Source: Williamsia serinedens (GTDB taxonomy: Bacteria; Actinomycetota; Actinomycetes; Mycobacteriales; Mycobacteriaceae). Taken from it: a stretch of 64,000 nucleotides of DNA. The translations under genes and the position numbers were made by a program. The first letter of the stretch is position 1. Every line of letters begins with the position of its first letter. Under the pieces are notes generated by a model. The model saw only the letters and a list, made by a program, of their open reading frames with translations. It searched no databases and was not told the origin of the DNA. The stretch covers positions 186,001 to 250,000 of the forward strand of contig NZ_JAMTCG010000002.1 in the NCBI RefSeq assembly GCF_024171725.1, read 5' to 3'. Below, one piece after another: positions 6,786 through 17,780 of the stretch.

Positions 6786-7261
6786 GCGACACCACACTGC
6801 CGGTCCTCGAGTACCTGCGGCGGCACGTGGCGGGAACGCTCGGTCCCGACGACCGCACCTTCCTGCGCTACCCCACCGCGATCTCCCGACTCCTCGGGTT
6901 CGAGATCACCGAGGTCGACGCGGGGACCGCCACCCTGACCGTCGTCACCGACCCCGAGCTGCACAGCAATCAACAGGGCACCGTGCACGGCGGGTTCATC
7001 AGCGAACTCGCCGACGCGGCGATCGGGACCGCGCGGTCGACGACGATCGCGCAGGGCGAGTCGTTCACGAGCATCGACCTGCGCATCACGTTCCTCCGCC
7101 CGATGTGGGCCGGCACGCTGACGGCTCGGGCACACCCCACGCACATCGGGTCGACGGTGCAGCACTACGCCTGCGACATCACGCGCGACGACGGCAAGAC
7201 GGTCGCGACGGCGACCAGCACCGTCCTCACCCTGCGGGGCGAGAAGGCCGCCGGGCGATGA
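6782..7261 (+). CDS. PaaI-family hotdog-fold acyl-CoA thioesterase
   Basis: A 159-residue single hotdog domain. The family motif HGGFISELADAAIGTA supplies the helix and the conserved His-Gly-Gly and Asp residues around the active site; the beta strands SIDLRITFLRPMWAGTLTA follow as expected. Such enzymes hydrolyse aryl- or medium-chain acyl-CoA thioesters. ATGA overlap with the upstream phosphatase shows translational coupling. The length is slightly above the usual 140 residues because of an N-terminal helical extension. Confidence 0.85.
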   Translation: MSDTTLPVLEYLRRHVAGTLGPDDRTFLRYPTAISRLLGFEITEVDAGTATLTVVTDPELHSNQQGTVHGGFISELADAAIGTARSTTIAQGESFTSIDLRITFLRPMWAGTLTARAHPTHIGSTVQHYACDITRDDGKTVATATSTVLTLRGEKAAGR

Positions 7262-7321
7262 GTTCCGCGGCCGTCGACGGTCCGTATCTCCGACACCATC
7301 ACCGCGAACGGGAGTGACCTC

Positions 7322-7939
7322 ATGAGCAGGACGAACCTGTCGATGTCCATCTCGGCGGACGGCTACGTCGCCGGCCCCGACCAGAGCGCGGACAACCCGC
7401 TCGGGGTGGGCGGGCCGGCGCTGCACCGCTGGCACATCGGACCCGACGCCGACCACCCCGTGAACAGGCAGGTCATGTCGGACATGCTCGACGGGATGGG
7501 CGCGACCATCATGGGTCGCAACATGTTCGGCCCGGTCCGCGGCGACTGGGGCGACTCGGACTGGCGAGGGTGGTGGGGTGACGAGCCGCCGTACCACTGT
7601 CCCGTGTTCGTCCTGACCCACTTCGCGCACGACCCGATCGAGATGTCGGGCGGCACCACCTTCCACTTCGTCACCGACGGCATCGAGTCCGCGTACCGCC
7701 GGGCCGTCGACGCCGCCGACGGGCAGTCGATCTCCATCGCGGGCGGGGCGTCGTGTGCGCGGCAGGCCATCGCGGCCGGCATCGTCGACGAGATCGACCT
7801 GCAGGTGAGCGGCGAGATCCTCGGCGGCGGCGAGCGCCTGTTCGACGGCTTCGCCCCGGGCACACCGCGACTCGAGCTCACCCGGGTTCTCGAGGCACCA
7901 CCGAACACGGTCCATCTCCGCTACCGCGTAGTTCGCTGA
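7322..7939 (+). CDS. Dihydrofolate reductase family protein (RibD C-terminal domain)
   Basis: A 205-residue protein of the RibD_C/DHFR-like fold. It starts NLSMSISADGYVAGPDQS, includes GATIMGRNMFGPVRGDWG (the conserved MGRxT/M-like strand-turn) and SIAGGASCARQAIAAG (nucleotide-binding loop), and ends with the DEIDLQVSG strand. These proteins are NAD(P)H-dependent reductases of unknown substrate; it is not a true folA. A Shine-Dalgarno GGGAG lies ten bases before the ATG. Its stop codon lies at the first bases of a nine-unit 21-bp tandem array. Confidence 0.85.
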   Translation: MSRTNLSMSISADGYVAGPDQSADNPLGVGGPALHRWHIGPDADHPVNRQVMSDMLDGMGATIMGRNMFGPVRGDWGDSDWRGWWGDEPPYHCPVFVLTHFAHDPIEMSGGTTFHFVTDGIESAYRRAVDAADGQSISIAGGASCARQAIAAGIVDEIDLQVSGEILGGGERLFDGFAPGTPRLELTRVLEAPPNTVHLRYRVVR

Positions 7940-8126
7940 CCGTCGGTTGGGCGGTCGGGACCATCGGTTGGGCGGTTGGGACCGTCGGTTGGGCGGTTGG
8001 GACCGTCGGTTGGGCGGTTGGGACCATCGGTTGGGCGGTCGGGACCATCGGTTGGGCGGTCGGGACCATCGGTTGGGCGGTCGGGACCATCGGTTGGGCG
8101 GTTGGGACCATCGGTTGGGCGGTTGG
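7938..8126 (+). repeat. 21-bp G-rich tandem array, 9 units, sense to the DHFR-like gene
   Basis: Nine uninterrupted units of exactly 21 bases (GACC[A/G]TCGGTTGGGCGGT[C/T]GG), differing only at two positions, begin at the stop codon of the reductase gene. Each unit contains GG-TT-GGG-C-GG-T(C/T)-GGG-like spacing compatible with a two-tetrad G-quadruplex. An opposite-orientation array of related units follows at 8146-8208. The same family recurs at 17188-17346. There are no spacers, so this is not a CRISPR array. Confidence 0.95.
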
Positions 8127-8145
8127 GACGAATGTGGTGCCCCGG

Positions 8146-8208
8146 CTGCCCAACGAACGGTTCCTGCTGCCCAACGAACGGTTTCTGCTGCCCAACGAAC
8201 GGGTCTCG
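8146..8208 (-). repeat. 21-bp tandem array, 3 units, opposite orientation
   Basis: Three 21-base units, read on the minus strand with core CCGTTCGTTGGGCAG, sit 11 bases downstream of the stop of the minus-strand phosphotransferase gene. They share GTTGGGC(A/G)G with the facing array at 7938-8126. Transcription across both arrays from either side would place G-rich units next to their partial complements and could fold into long hairpins. Confidence 0.9.
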
Positions 8209-8219
8209 GGTCATTACAT

Positions 8220-9242
8220 CTAGCTCAGGGCGCGCAGGCCGGCGGCCATGAACTCCTGGGTCGCCTCGGCGGCCTTCTCCGCACCCTCACCCGACGACGA
8301 CCCCTGCAGCGCGCGGTAGGCGATGCCCTCACCGATCACGCCGAGCTTGAAGTTCGCGAGCGCGAGGTAGAAACCCCAGTGCGCCATCTCGACCCCGGCC
8401 GCGGTCGCGTAGCGCTGCGCGAGGTCGTCGGTGTCGGGGTAGCGGTCGCTGGTCCACGCGGCCGACAGGCCGAGCACCCGGTCGAAGATGGGCTGGCGGT
8501 AGACGCACATGAGGGCGACGTCGGTGATCGGGTCACCCAGGGTCGACATCTCCCAGTCCACCACGGCACGAACGACTCCCGGGTCGTCGGCGTCGAGGAT
8601 CGTGTTGTCCACGCGGAAGTCCCCGTGCACGATCGCGTTCGCGGAATCGGTCGGGATGTTGTCGGCCAGCAGACCAGCGAGCTTCTCCACGTCCGGCAGC
8701 TCGCGGGTCTTCACGATCCCCCACTGCCGCGTCCACGTCTTCACCTGGCGTGCGACGAATCCCTCCGGCCGACCGAACTCGCCGAGCCCGACCGCCTCGT
8801 GATCCACGGCGTGCAGATCGGCCAGGGTCCGGATCAACGCGTCGACGTTGCGGTCCACGGCGGCGTCGTCGAGGGCGTCGAGCTCCGACGCACTGCGGAT
8901 CACCGTGCCCTCGACGAACTCGACGACGGTGCACGGCGCACCGAGGACGGTGCCCTCGGCGTCGAACGCGACCGTCCGCGCCACCGGTACAGCTGTGCCC
9001 TGCAACGCCCGGGTCACCGTCCACTCCCGGTTCATGTCGTGCGCAGACGGCGTCAGACCCGACGTCGGCGGACGACGCACGACCCACTTCGTCGCGCCGT
9101 CGGTGACTCCGAACGTGAGGTTCGACCGGCCACCGGAGATGAGGTGGACGTCGAGATCACCCGCGACCTCGACGCCCGAATCCGCCAGGAACGACCGCAG
9201 CGCAACCGGATCCATGCCCGGCAGCGACGTCGTGGAGGTCAC
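8220..9242 (-). CDS. Aminoglycoside-phosphotransferase-like (APH) kinase, acyl-CoA-dehydrogenase associated
   Basis: A 340-residue protein-kinase-like fold. Visible motifs are the glycine-rich start LISGGRSNLTFGV, the lysine strand TKWVVRRPP, the catalytic loop HGDFRVDNTIL and the metal-binding VVDWEMSTLGDP. Members encoded beside acyl-CoA dehydrogenases, as here, and fused to one in animal ACAD10/11, phosphorylate hydroxyacyl-CoA intermediates before reductive removal; that role is inferred. GTG start overlaps the dehydrogenase stop by 4 bases. The frame stays open upstream, but that stretch mirrors the dehydrogenase. Confidence 0.88.
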   Translation of the reverse strand: MTSTTSLPGMDPVALRSFLADSGVEVAGDLDVHLISGGRSNLTFGVTDGATKWVVRRPPTSGLTPSAHDMNREWTVTRALQGTAVPVARTVAFDAEGTVLGAPCTVVEFVEGTVIRSASELDALDDAAVDRNVDALIRTLADLHAVDHEAVGLGEFGRPEGFVARQVKTWTRQWGIVKTRELPDVEKLAGLLADNIPTDSANAIVHGDFRVDNTILDADDPGVVRAVVDWEMSTLGDPITDVALMCVYRQPIFDRVLGLSAAWTSDRYPDTDDLAQRYATAAGVEMAHWGFYLALANFKLGVIGEGIAYRALQGSSSGEGAEKAAEATQEFMAAGLRALS

Positions 9243-10453
9243 TGCGCCGCCTGCGACTGCTGCTTCTTCGCCGCCCGCCCCACGGCACGCTTGGCGATCG
9301 CCCAGCGATGCACCTCGGAGGCGCCGTCGTAGATGCGGAACGGCCTGAGCTCGGCCTGCAGACGCGCGAGCGGCAGGTCGTCGGTGACGCCCGAACCACC
9401 GCACATCTGGATGGCGCGATCGACGACGCGCGAGTACGCCTCGGCGGCGAAAGTCTTCGCGATCGACGTCTCGTTGCTGGCGTGGCGGCCGAGATCCAGT
9501 TCGTGGCAGGCCTTCACGAGCAGTGCCCTCGATGCGGCGAGGTCGATCTCGTTGTCGGCCACCATCTGCTGGATCATGCCGAGATCGCCGAGCCGGCCGC
9601 CGAACGCCCGACGACGCGCGACGTAGTCGACGGCGACCTCGTGCGCGCGGACCGCGACACCCAACCACCGCATGACGTGCGTCATGCGCGCCGGTCCGAG
9701 CCGGACCTGCGCGTACCGGAAGCCCTCGTCGACCTCGCCCAGGACGTTCTCGTCGGGAACGAACAGCTCACGGAACCGGATCTCGCAGTGACCGCCCAGT
9801 CCCGCACGGTCGGTGGTCCCCATGTGCCGCACGATCTCGATGCCGTCGTCGGGCGCCGGCGCGAGGAACATCGTGGCTCCGCCGCTCTCACCGGGCGAGC
9901 CCGACGTGCGCGCCATGATGATGAAGAACCCCGCACCGTCCGCGCCGGTGATGAACCACTTGTGGCCCGTTATCGACCACCCACCGGGAACCCGCGTGGC
10001 CGCCGTCGTCAGGGCCGACGGATCCGATCCCGCACCGGGTTCCGGCTCGGTCATCGCGAACGCCGACCGCACGTCACCGTGCGCCAGCGGGGCCAGGAAC
10101 TGCTCCTTCTGCGCCGGCGACGCGATGTGGGCGAGCATGTGCACGTTGCCCTCGTCGGGCGCACCGATGTTCAGCGCGATCGGACCGAACACCGACCGTC
10201 CCCCGGCCTCGAAGACCGGCGCGCGATCGGACATGTTCAGTCCGAGGCCGCCGTACTCGACCGGGGCGTGCGGCGCGAACACGCCTGCGGCCTTGGCCTT
10301 CTCCTGCAGTTCGATCCGCAGGTGCTCCCCGCCGGCCTTCTCGAAGTCGCCCGCGAACTCGTCCTCCAGCGGCAGGACGACGTCGGCGACGAACGCCTCC
10401 GTCGCGGCGATCGTCTTCTGCACCTCGTCGTCGTAGCGCAAGTCCACTGCCAT
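9239..10453 (-). CDS. Acyl-CoA dehydrogenase, ACAD10/11-like
   Basis: A 404-residue flavoenzyme. Acyl-CoA dehydrogenase signatures include AFAMTEPEPGAGSDPS (flavin and substrate contact), WSITGHKWFITGADGAGF and the C-terminal MCGGSGVTDDLPLARL with the DGASEVHRWAIAKR tail. It lies between a TetR regulator and an APH-like kinase on one strand with 3-4 base junctions, so all three should be one transcript. By analogy with ACAD11 systems, kinase and dehydrogenase may act together on 4-hydroxyacyl-CoAs. Full family length; nothing missing. Confidence 0.92.
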   Translation of the reverse strand: MAVDLRYDDEVQKTIAATEAFVADVVLPLEDEFAGDFEKAGGEHLRIELQEKAKAAGVFAPHAPVEYGGLGLNMSDRAPVFEAGGRSVFGPIALNIGAPDEGNVHMLAHIASPAQKEQFLAPLAHGDVRSAFAMTEPEPGAGSDPSALTTAATRVPGGWSITGHKWFITGADGAGFFIIMARTSGSPGESGGATMFLAPAPDDGIEIVRHMGTTDRAGLGGHCEIRFRELFVPDENVLGEVDEGFRYAQVRLGPARMTHVMRWLGVAVRAHEVAVDYVARRRAFGGRLGDLGMIQQMVADNEIDLAASRALLVKACHELDLGRHASNETSIAKTFAAEAYSRVVDRAIQMCGGSGVTDDLPLARLQAELRPFRIYDGASEVHRWAIAKRAVGRAAKKQQSQAAQ

Positions 10454-15658: not shown

Positions 15659-17185
15659 GTGCGCAGCTACGACGACATCGTGATCGGCGCCGGCCACAAC
15701 GGGCTCACCGCGGCCGCCTACCTCGCGCGCGCCGGACGTCGCGTGGTGGTGCTCGAGCGGTCGGATCACGTCGGTGGCGCGGCGATCTCGGCCGACGTGT
15801 TCCCCGGTGTCGCAGCACGACTGTCGCGGTACTCCTACCTGGTGTCGCTGCTGCCGCGGCACGTCATCAGCGACCTCGACCTCGACCTCCGGCTGGTGCG
15901 ACGACGGTTCTCGTCCTACACGCCGGTGCCCGGCGCCCCGGAACGCGGGATCCTCGTCGACGGCGGGGACGAGGAAGCGACGCGCGCCGCGTTCCGATCG
16001 GTCACCGGCTCCGACGCCGATCACGATGCGTGGCAACGGTTCTACACCGCGATGGGCGAGGTGGCGCAGCGCCTGTTCCCGACGATGACGCAGCCCCTGC
16101 CGTCGCTGTCCACGGCACGCGACCTCGTCGGCGACGTCTGGGCCGACCTCGTCGAACGGCCACTCGGCGACTGGCTCCGGCGGGAGTTCGCCGACGACAC
16201 CGTGCGCGGGATCGTCGCGACCGACGCCCTGATCGGCACCTTCGCGGATCTCGACGACCCGTCGCTGCGGCAGAACATCTGCCTGCTCTACCACCTGATC
16301 GGCAACGGCACGGGCGACTGGGACGTGCCTGTCGGGGGCATGGGTGCGGTGACGGGGGCGATGGCCCGGGCGGCGCTCGACGCCGGGGCCGAGATCCTCA
16401 CCGGCGCCGAGGTCGTCGGCGTGGATCCCGCCGACGGCAGCGTGTCCTGGCGGACGACCGCCGGCGGTGACGAGGCGCGTGCGCCGTGCATCCACGCTGC
16501 CTGCGCGCCCGCGGTGCTGAACACGATGCTCGACGAACCCGTTGCCACGGAACCGGATCCGCGGGGTGCGCAGCTCAAGGTGAACCTGGTGCTGACGCGA
16601 CTCCCCCGCCTCGCCGACCCCACCGTCGACCCGGTCGCCGCATTCTCCGGCACCTTCCACGTCAACGAGGGTTTCGACCAGCTCCACACCGCGTGGACGC
16701 GGGCGTCGCAGGGGCGTGTCCCCGACGTGCCTCCGTGCGAGATCTACTGCCACACCCTGTCCGACCGCAGCATCCTCGGTCCGGGCACGGACGGGATGCA
16801 GACGCTCACGCTCTTCGGGCTGCACATGCCGCCCGAACTGTTCGACCGGACAGACGCGAGGGACGAGGCCCTCGCCGCGACGCTGCGATCACTCGACTCC
16901 GTGCTCGCCGAGCCGGTGATGGAGGTCGTCGCGCGCGACGGTGCCGGCAACCCGTGCATCGAGGTGCGCACCCCGCGGGACCTCGAGCAGTCGCCGGGCC
17001 TGCCGGGCGGCCACATCTTCCACCGCTCGCTGCAGTGGCCGTGGGCCGAGTCCGACGACGAGATCGGGACATGGGGCGTCGAGACACGTCATCCGCGGGT
17101 GAGCATCGCCGGGGCGGGCGCCCGCCGTGGCGGAGGGGTCAGCGGCATCCCCGGCCACAACTCCGCCCGCTGGGCCCTGCAGTGA
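15659..17185 (+). CDS. Phytoene-desaturase-like FAD-dependent oxidoreductase (PYROXD2-type)
   Basis: A 508-residue flavoprotein with the dinucleotide-binding start DIVIGAGHNGLTAAAYLA followed by VVVLERSDHVGGAA, the classical GxGxxG plus acidic-residue and GG-doublet motif. The C-terminal FAD-closing motif is VSIAGAGARRGGGVSGIPGH. The family comprises carotenoid desaturases and many uncharacterised PYROXD2-like oxidoreductases; lacking neighbouring carotenoid genes, substrate is open. A second protein of this broad family is at 51011. Its stop is followed within two bases by a five-unit 21-bp array. Confidence 0.85.
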   Translation: MRSYDDIVIGAGHNGLTAAAYLARAGRRVVVLERSDHVGGAAISADVFPGVAARLSRYSYLVSLLPRHVISDLDLDLRLVRRRFSSYTPVPGAPERGILVDGGDEEATRAAFRSVTGSDADHDAWQRFYTAMGEVAQRLFPTMTQPLPSLSTARDLVGDVWADLVERPLGDWLRREFADDTVRGIVATDALIGTFADLDDPSLRQNICLLYHLIGNGTGDWDVPVGGMGAVTGAMARAALDAGAEILTGAEVVGVDPADGSVSWRTTAGGDEARAPCIHAACAPAVLNTMLDEPVATEPDPRGAQLKVNLVLTRLPRLADPTVDPVAAFSGTFHVNEGFDQLHTAWTRASQGRVPDVPPCEIYCHTLSDRSILGPGTDGMQTLTLFGLHMPPELFDRTDARDEALAATLRSLDSVLAEPVMEVVARDGAGNPCIEVRTPRDLEQSPGLPGGHIFHRSLQWPWAESDDEIGTWGVETRHPRVSIAGAGARRGGGVSGIPGHNSARWALQ

Positions 17186-17187
17186 CC

Positions 17188-17292
17188 CCGTTCGTCGGGC
17201 AGTTTGAGCCGTTCGTTGGGCGGTAGGAGCCGTTCGTTGGGCAGCCGGAGCCGTTCGTTGGGCGGTAGGAGCCGTTCGTTGGGCGGTTGGGA
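17188..17292 (+). repeat. 21-bp G-rich tandem array, 5 units, sense to the flavoprotein gene
   Basis: Five 21-base units with consensus CCGTTCGTTGGGCRGYNGGAG start two bases after the stop codon. They share the core GTTGGGC(A/G)G with the arrays at 7938-8208. The 10-base palindrome CCTCGCGAGG (17293-17302) follows immediately, marking the centre between this and the facing array. Confidence 0.93.
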
Positions 17293-17311
17293 CCTCGCGA
17301 GGTGCGCCGGA

Positions 17312-17346
17312 CGCCCACCAGACGGTTCCAACCGCCCAACAGACGG
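17312..17346 (-). repeat. 21-bp repeat, one full and one partial unit, sense to the NUDIX gene
   Basis: Read on the minus strand, one complete unit (core CCGTCTGTTGGGCGG, 17326-17346) and a 14-base partial unit follow five bases after the NUDIX stop codon. Orientation is again sense to the gene it follows and opposite to the array at 17188-17292. Confidence 0.85.
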
Positions 17347-17351
17347 TCGGG

Positions 17352-17780
17352 TCAGGAAGAGCCGCCGGTGTGGCGCCGCAGGACCGGTAGGACGTGGTCG
17401 ACGAAGAGCGGCGCGAGGTCGTCGCGGTCGTCGTCGGTGACGTCGTGCCAGCGCAGTTCGTCGATCTCCGCGGCGACCCTGACGTGTGATCCGTCCCCGT
17501 CCACCGTCCCGCAGTCGAAGACGTCGGCCAGCAGCACGGTGTCGGCCTCGTTGGCCGCGGCCGTCTCGATGCGACCCCACGGGGTCAGCGACCCGGGGTC
17601 CAGCACGATCCCGACCTCTTCGTCGATCTCGCGGACCACGGTGTCGAGCGGGGTCTCACCGGACTCGGGCTTGCCGCCCGGCATCATGTACCGGCTGGTC
17701 CCCCGCTTGCGGACGAGCAGGATCCGTCCCGTCGCGTCGCGGATGATCGCGGCGCTGACGACGATGGGATCAGTGGCCAC
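17352..17780 (-). CDS. NUDIX hydrolase
   Basis: A 142-residue protein with a canonical Nudix box: GKPESGETPLDTVVREIDEE then VG, providing the magnesium-binding glutamates (Gx5Ex7REUxEExGU). It should hydrolyse a nucleoside diphosphate linked to another group; no substrate-specific motif is clear. The GTG start overlaps the upstream SDR stop by 11 bases, so the two are translated from one mRNA. Fold length is minimal but complete. Confidence 0.92.
   Translation of the reverse strand: MATDPIVVSAAIIRDATGRILLVRKRGTSRYMMPGGKPESGETPLDTVVREIDEEVGIVLDPGSLTPWGRIETAAANEADTVLLADVFDCGTVDGDGSHVRVAAEIDELRWHDVTDDDRDDLAPLFVDHVLPVLRRHTGGSS

Follow-up and report, generated by a model that had tools for sequence, protein, structure and literature searches.

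REP sequences lie downstream of genes, in convergent or codirectional spacers, and in a REPtron the RAYT gene is flanked by two inverted REPs, with enzyme and repeat co-evolving and the abundance of the repeat tied to the enzyme, as set out in the cited parts of two reports (PMC2817692, PMC3733652). EDxHD is the name given, in the cited part of a further report, to a family of homing endonucleases that includes I-Bth0305I (PMC6083498). Here we compare with these systems a family of opposed tandem arrays in a window of 64,000 nucleotides, the whole stretch of DNA analysed, from Williamsia serinedens (contig NZ_JAMTCG010000002.1, positions 186,001 to 250,000), 94% of which is called coding. On balance, we favour the reading that the arrays in the window are 'empty' members of a repeat family, which a cognate endonuclease with its gene elsewhere in the genome keeps and spreads.

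The first window site lies between a RibD_C/DHFR-like gene and an APH-family gene that converge on it (Table 1). TRF found 9.1 copies of a 21-bp unit in the plus-strand array, with 96% matches and no indels. In the array that reads in reverse orientation and ends 17 bp from the stop of the minus-strand APH-family gene, it found 2.8 copies. The plus-strand array begins at the stop codon of the RibD_C/DHFR-like gene (TGA, 7937-7939), and its variants are confined to two positions, GACC[A/G]TCGG..GGT[T/C]GG. The preliminary description had reported nine units of constant length running from this stop codon, with changes at two positions, and three opposite-strand units near the stop of the phosphotransferase gene, all of which was borne out. 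Across the window, CGTTGGGCRGNNGG with at most one mismatch was matched 20 times, against 2.05 expected and a maximum of 9 in 100 shuffles. The right-hand array (CCGTTCGTTGGGCAGCAGGAA) is of the unit type found beside a nuclease locus of the same genome (L360, C7:381373-382167). A search of Rfam with positions 7300-8800 returned three matches at E ≤ 1, every one of them under the gathering score. The length of 340 aa for the APH-family protein is that of the coding caller; the ORF listing has a longer ORF, to 9668.

Table 1. Features of the two opposed array sites in the window
Feature	Position	Strand	Basis
Left convergent gene, first site, RibD_C/DHFR-like, 205 aa	7322..7939	+	ORF; Pfam PF01872 E=7e-16
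Nine 21-bp units, core GTTGGGC; first core 7946-7952, last core 8114-8120	7938..8129	+	
Distance of 27 bp between innermost opposed cores, one of the phase-locked lengths	8121..8147	.	
Three 21-bp units, sense CCGTTCGTTGGGCAGCAGGAA	8145..8202	-	
Right convergent gene, first site, APH phosphotransferase family, 340 aa	8220..9242	-	Pfam PF01636 E=8e-47
Left gene, second site, FAD-dependent oxidoreductase family	15659..17185	+	
Second site, five 21-bp units; cores 17194-17284, one being GTCGGGC	17188..17290	+	
Second site, opposed pair of units; one core degenerate (GCCCACC, at 17313), the other exact (17334-17340)	17313..17340	-	
Right gene, second site, NUDIX	17352..17780	-	

The preliminary description mentions neither the 27-bp distance between the innermost opposed cores nor a second opposed site (17188-17341), which fills the spacer (17186-17351) of another convergent gene pair. 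Spacers orthologous to that of the first site carry opposed 21-bp arrays in G005, an uncultured Williamsia, where the unit type is the same as in the window, and in W. deligens DSM 44902 (G006), where it is CGTCGAGTGGGC; in W. maris and a Williamsia MAG a codirectional gene follows the ortholog of the left gene, and no array was seen there. At the second site, the orthologous spacer holds arrays in 3 of 8 genomes, while in four the stop of the next gene is 6-19 bp off, and in G002, with a spacer of 457 bp, no array was seen.

The exact pattern GTTGGGC-N14-GTTGGGC occurs 99 times in the W. serinedens genome and the reversed pattern does not occur. Exact GTTGGGC pairs at 21 bp number 24-132 per genome in eight Williamsia and 0-2 in 53 other genomes, and among 251 genomes of the family GAGTGGGC pairs are frequent only in Williamsia, in a single g17 genome and in three genomes of the genus g9 (7, 7 and 17 pairs), a few other genomes holding one pair. 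Units with the core GAGTGGGC or CGAGCGTGC are found in the same kind of place, at times within one array. In convergent spacers of Williamsia, a tandem test that is independent of the core gave lags that were mostly 19-22 bp; in 41 convergent spacers of other genera it gave no lag of this type.

Opposed 21-bp arrays recur at dozens of sites, mostly in convergent spacers. On the grids of G001, G006 and W. maris DSM 44693 (G007), with one G006 grid point shifted, arrays were present in 8 of 43 convergent spacers of at least 40 bp and in 5 of 337 other spacers (Fisher p=1e-5); the G000 grid, placed away from known GTTGGGC sites, was left out of this pooled test. In stretches of the W. serinedens genome chosen for having arrays, 20 of 39 convergent spacers held them, against 13 of 187 others. 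The enrichment at the 3' ends of convergent genes that the preliminary description had anticipated was therefore observed, with exceptions: three arrays in divergent spacers of the own-genome stretches (on regular grids, 1 divergent spacer in 118) and two inside coding sequences. Codirectional spacers hold arrays too, with one orientation only in 15 of 20, and in convergent array spacers a single orientation was seen in 19 of 40; these single-orientation arrays of convergent spacers are sense to the nearer gene in 7 cases and antisense in 12, so that no polarity is apparent. Where a convergent spacer holds both orientations, the cores point inward ('+-') in 18 cases and outward in 3 (p=0.0015). 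In G023, of another genus, the dispersed opposed arrays stand mostly in reverse order (8 of 10 convergent sites), in contrast to the order at its own nuclease.

Several neighbouring observations were made along the way. Seven in-frame units at L156:5919-6051 form a stretch rich in Ala, Pro and Gln that separates two portions of a single ORF, TerD- and AIM24-like by eye, and three in-frame units at L163:5978-6026 lie within an ORF of 4000 codons, NRPS-like by eye. A protein-coding reading of the 21-bp (7-codon) unit was rejected, since the window copies lie after a stop codon and the inner distances are not multiples of 3. Another tandem family, of 19-20 bp and GCTCCACATACAGGGTTCCC type, occupies convergent spacers at L189:11028-11223, L197:18061-18248 and L215:12453-12580, with a central inverted repeat around GGACGCTCCGG, and a 25-bp tandem repeat, TGATCTCCGCTCGGCGGAGGCGGCC, lies in a codirectional spacer of W. 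deligens (L217:9028-9216). On repeat layout alone, CRISPR was also rejected, since it needs 24-48-bp repeats with unique spacers and the units here are contiguous, opposed, 21 bp long and present at dozens of sites.

Consecutive same-strand cores no more than 40 bp apart are spaced by 21 bp in 344 of 349 cases, the remainder being at 20 bp (two), 22 bp (two) and 8 bp (one), and this spacing is fixed despite a mean of 2.8 differences per 14 spacer bases between neighbouring units. For 55 '+-' pairs from six genomes, with distances of up to 75 bp, the inner distances fall at 7-8, 17-19, 27-29, 38-39, 47-50, 58-60 and 69-70 bp; the best period in the scanned range of 6-25 bp is 10.4 bp, and the values fit 7+10.4k bp. 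When similar loops and second pairs of a locus were removed (n=48), R was 0.92, with a bootstrap period of 10.30-10.52, and the maximum R in 20,000 uniform simulations was 0.55; without the loci picked by distance-limited searches (n=33), R was 0.89 and the period was still 10.4. Taken modulo 21, 35 of the 48 distances lie at 5-8 and the remaining 13 all lie at 16-18, half a unit off; we regard the position of these 13 as the stronger point because a common unit lattice alone could give the 5-8 class. In eight whole genomes, GTTGGGC-N15..45-GCCCAAC tallied 41 distinct places, 36 of them on the comb (17-19, 27-29, 38-39), the five off-comb places (20, 24, 32, 35, 36) showing no tandem repeat and four of them lying in called coding sequence; since the reversed control gave 21 matches, some of the matches are due to chance. 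Opposed pairs more than 75 bp apart showed no phase (n=17), the '-+' pairs were few (n=7, R=0.81), and the loop sequences between opposed arrays mostly look unrelated. These results show that unit spacing and, up to 75 bp, inner distance are locked to the helical repeat of DNA. This points to protein on DNA, since proteins on one face of the helix need such steps and an RNA hairpin does not.

We considered 59 opposed pairs in which each array has two or more exact cores. In 13 of these pairs a called gene lies in the gap, which measures 422-1398 bp, and six of the 13 enclosed genes encode related AbiEi-like proteins with a nuclease domain, while seven do not. In the five proteins scanned, the N-terminal part matches the AbiEi model (E 2.5e-11 to 3e-16); in the C-terminal part of four scanned, Pfam returned MTES_1575 (PF18741) under the cut-off, and DUF559 (PF04480) in two, one of them above it. 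Eight Williamsia genomes gave 41 matches to this nuclease at E ≤ 1e-10, 30 of them with loci, and, with a cut between close (bits >240) and distant members that was set after the scores were seen, all 19 close members adjoin arrays; by exact cores, no array adjoins any of the 11 distant ones. In W. serinedens, L360 has a paralogue, L374, and W. deligens DSM 44902 has three close paralogues. A search of 42 genomes of other genera with A1, the alignment of the 19, yielded 38 matches at E ≤ 1e-40, and 30 of these have loci. Nineteen distant matches without a locus (11 in Williamsia, 8 in other genera) were left out of the flank counts. In a uniform flank test of the 60 loci (tandem lag 20-22 within 450 bp), arrays were found on at least one side, at a score ≥16, in 33 of 33 close members from four genera and in 1 of 27 others (L416, a partial gene). 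Both sides carried arrays in 23 of the 33 at a score ≥16, in 28 at ≥12 and in 30 when exact cores were counted, against 0 of 27 others; shuffled flanks gave 0 of 360, and the left flank of L363 consists of N. Units to the left and right are alike once the right flank is reverse-complemented, so the arrays that flank the nuclease are opposed. In a tree of 58 homologues, from which L406 and L416 were left out, the 33 array-linked members form one clade (SH-aLRT 97), with one label change against a mean of 19 when labels were shuffled.

A sequence search of the PDB with the nuclease returned nothing at E ≤ 0.1. AlphaFold2 run on A1 gave a model (pLDDT 83, pTM 0.79) whose top Foldseek match is Rv2827c (E 1e-3, 211 columns, TM 0.37); the catalytic domain of I-Bth0305I (3r3p) was matched over about 100 columns with probability 1.00, a TM by target of 0.69-0.72 and E 0.02-0.05, and the Pfam range suggests that the I-Bth0305I-like part is the C-terminal domain. 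All 33 clade members have E161, D194, D207 and H212, the last of which is present in 2 of 25 homologues outside the clade, and D225 of the putative active site is kept in 27 of 33 and replaced in six. The order of these residues, E-D-x-H-D, recalls that of the EDxHD family, and they may be the catalytic residues.

Other genes also stand between widely spaced opposed arrays (L173, L312, L301, L176, L344, L311 and L157), comprising an FAD oxidoreductase, a flavin reductase, DUF308, DUF4190, small proteins and an HNH-domain fragment; these non-nuclease genes may be passengers. Beside one distant homologue (L409) there are tandem repeats of other lags, 18 and 26, and in several distant homologues of other genera (flanks of L402-L419) the gene stands between the arms of a single inverted repeat of 13-24 bases, such as ACGCCGAGCGTGCAGGTT, perhaps an ancestral form of the system.

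The unit sequence follows the phylogeny of the nuclease. Units of CCGTTCGTTGGGCAGCAGGAA type adjoin one subclade in G000, G005 and G006, and CGTCGAGTGGGCGG is found in G005 and G006, GTGTTGGGCCCTCGTT in G001, G004 and G007, and CAGTTGGGCACGTAA in G003 and G004 and in G001 and G007; further flanking units are 21- or 22-bp CCGACCGTGC types and, in other genera, even CCGCCGACAGCAAC or CGCCGACAGAACCC. Protein and unit distances are correlated, with a Mantel r of 0.53 over 33 members and 0.71 over the 19 of Williamsia (0 of 5000 permutations each), and the mean unit distance is 0.49 between paralogues of one genome (n=17) against 0.23 between close homologues across genomes (n=27). Three Williamsia with a nuclease flanked by GAGTGGGC units hold 44-50 GAGTGGGC pairs, against 0-27 in five without one. 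The W. serinedens genome itself has 27 such pairs and, at E ≤ 1e-10, no nuclease with a matching flank; G002 holds 50 GTTGGGC pairs, yet at the same threshold it too has no nuclease with a matching flank.

Some loci carry the nuclease gene in one species and lack it in another. At L164, a site of W. serinedens with opposed arrays at an inner distance of 39 bp and no nuclease, both flanks match nuclease loci of six genomes (L373 in G001, L366 in G003, L370 in G004, L369 in G005, L368 in G006 and L372 in G007). The flank matches are separated by 213 bp in L164 against 1205-1310 bp where the locus is occupied in G001, G003 and G007, or, with the shorter flank query of L368, by 606 bp against 1613-1721 bp when occupied; with G002, only one flank of L164 matches. 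A second such pair is L378 of G005, which is occupied, and L297 of G003, which is empty (226 bp).

Taking these results together, the best explanation is a REPtron-like or homing-like system that relies on a different nuclease; the arrays would be its recognition sites, at which the nuclease would bind, cut and move, and its non-autonomous copies. Several copies of the nuclease would bind units on one face of the helix, probably through the AbiEi-like N-terminal part, and two opposed sets of units would bring the catalytic domains together over the gap, which would then be cut. Repair would copy into the break either an array or the nuclease gene with its arrays, and the inserted gene, of about 1 kb, would break the phased geometry and so shield the copy that holds it, in the manner of intronless homing. 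Convergent 3' ends would be the least harmful places for such insertions, and repeated rounds of breakage and repair could make the arrays grow in tandem. A secondary use of the arrays as bidirectional terminators is possible. Nuclease-linked arrays comprise four or more unit types within one genus, and we propose, as a tentative view that may well prove wrong, that they belong to a new class of selfish element in which an AbiEi-EDxHD endonuclease reads phased opposed arrays and spreads them as non-autonomous elements while its own gene homes into them, nuclease-unit pairs arising repeatedly; an unrelated nuclease would then have arrived independently at the REPtron principle. A literature search, with most subscription journals outside its scope, returned no description of a partnership of this kind between a nuclease and short repeats.

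An alternative is that the opposed arrays are bidirectional terminators or stabilisers of 3' ends, selected as RNA, in which each transcript pairs its own units with the antisense units of its partner into a long hairpin. The window transcript does fold stably (-163 kcal/mol, z=-6.9; none of 200 shuffles as stable), several G023 sites form near-perfect multi-unit hairpins with tight loops, and short-loop hairpins of at least 10 pairs were found in 39 of 80 array-less convergent spacers against 18 of 82 that bear arrays (p=5e-4), as if the arrays had replaced terminators. In the W. serinedens genome, pairing is better between the arms of one site than between swapped arms (n=22, p=0.002), but the same swap in G023 shows nothing (p=0.55), and left and right unit spacers match only slightly better within than between sites (p from 0.007 to 0.87 by genome). 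Moreover, an RNA stem has no need of loop lengths that change in steps of 10.4 bp; 19 of the 40 convergent and 15 of the 20 codirectional array spacers have a single orientation; no U-tract terminator was found in window positions 7000-9500; and L164 has, by eye, a hairpin of its own beside its arrays. We consider this reading unlikely. The preliminary description had placed the effect in the transcript, which would run through sense and then antisense units; this is possible, but the strongest evidence, that is, the helical phase and the linked nuclease clade, favours a system acting on DNA.

If the AbiEi-like protein were a regulator, the arrays would control the nuclease gene as operators or titrate the protein as decoys, and the nuclease domain would be incidental or defensive; this would suit the N-terminal AbiEi model match, the Rv2827c fold match and the arrays that adjoin the gene in all 33 members, but it leaves unexplained the dozens of copies that lie far from the gene in convergent spacers, the rarity of arrays in divergent spacers on regular grids and the existence of empty and occupied alleles, and we judge it improbable. 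The helical phase and the convergent location would also fit a host nucleoid or topology protein, such as gyrase, with a need for phased sites at places where positive supercoils accumulate under convergent transcription. Against it, unit sequence varies among genomes and tracks the nuclease clade, and few genera of the family have the GAGTGGGC type in frequent copies; we consider this reading very improbable. Readings as a polar roadblock or a gyrase wrap fell back once the nuclease clade was found. Least probable to us is that the arrays are neutral satellites, which slippage and gene conversion have produced in the only stretches that a compact genome can do without. Convergent spacers are indeed under little constraint, units are somewhat homogenised within a site and single-orientation arrays lack polarity; against this stand the few 1-bp changes in spacing despite many substitutions, the comb of inner distances, the inward polarity of opposed pairs and the clade-wide link to a nuclease.

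In the reports cited, the enzyme tied to such dispersed bacterial repeats is the RAYT of REP systems. If the nuclease-driven reading is true, a second and unrelated enzyme clade would have repeats of its own. The natural pairs of a nuclease and a 20-22-bp unit would make the recognition code directly testable, the 10.4-bp comb would be a geometric rule that predicts how the protein sits on DNA, and the empty and occupied alleles offer material for mobility tests. The repeat family accounts for part of the content of convergent spacers in Williamsia and some relatives.

Compared with known systems, the arrays resemble the bidirectional intrinsic terminators of convergent genes in location and inverted layout, and differ from them in that no U tract was found, the units are phased and in tandem, and a nuclease clade is linked to them. 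With the BIME-2 arrays of E. coli, which bind gyrase, they share repeated inverted units at 3' ends, but the sequences and the enzyme are others. The free-standing homing endonuclease genes of the EDxHD type, such as that of I-Bth0305I, have in common with the present system a predicted nuclease fold and a locus that is empty in a relative; the known targets of homing endonucleases are single conserved sites, whereas the putative target here is a dispersed and co-evolving opposed array. REPtrons (RAYT/TnpA-REP/BIME), as presented in the cited parts of three reports, share an enzyme gene flanked by inverted repeats, dispersed and often opposed repeats, and co-evolution (PMC2817692, PMC3733652, PMC8266576). 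Their enzyme, however, is a Y1 HUH tyrosine transposase and that of the arrays is of the AbiEi-DUF559/MTES_1575 type, predicted to be EDxHD/PD-(D/E)XK-like; Pfam scans of four nucleases returned MTES_1575/DUF559 and no Y1 transposase. The repeats differ likewise, REPs being palindromes tagged with GTAG or CGTC and the repeats here helically phased tandem arrays of 20-22-bp units which, in those examined by eye, are not GTAG-tagged palindromes, some containing CGTC. Since the enzyme does not match, we do not class the system as a REPtron; it would nevertheless work like one, or like intronless homing.
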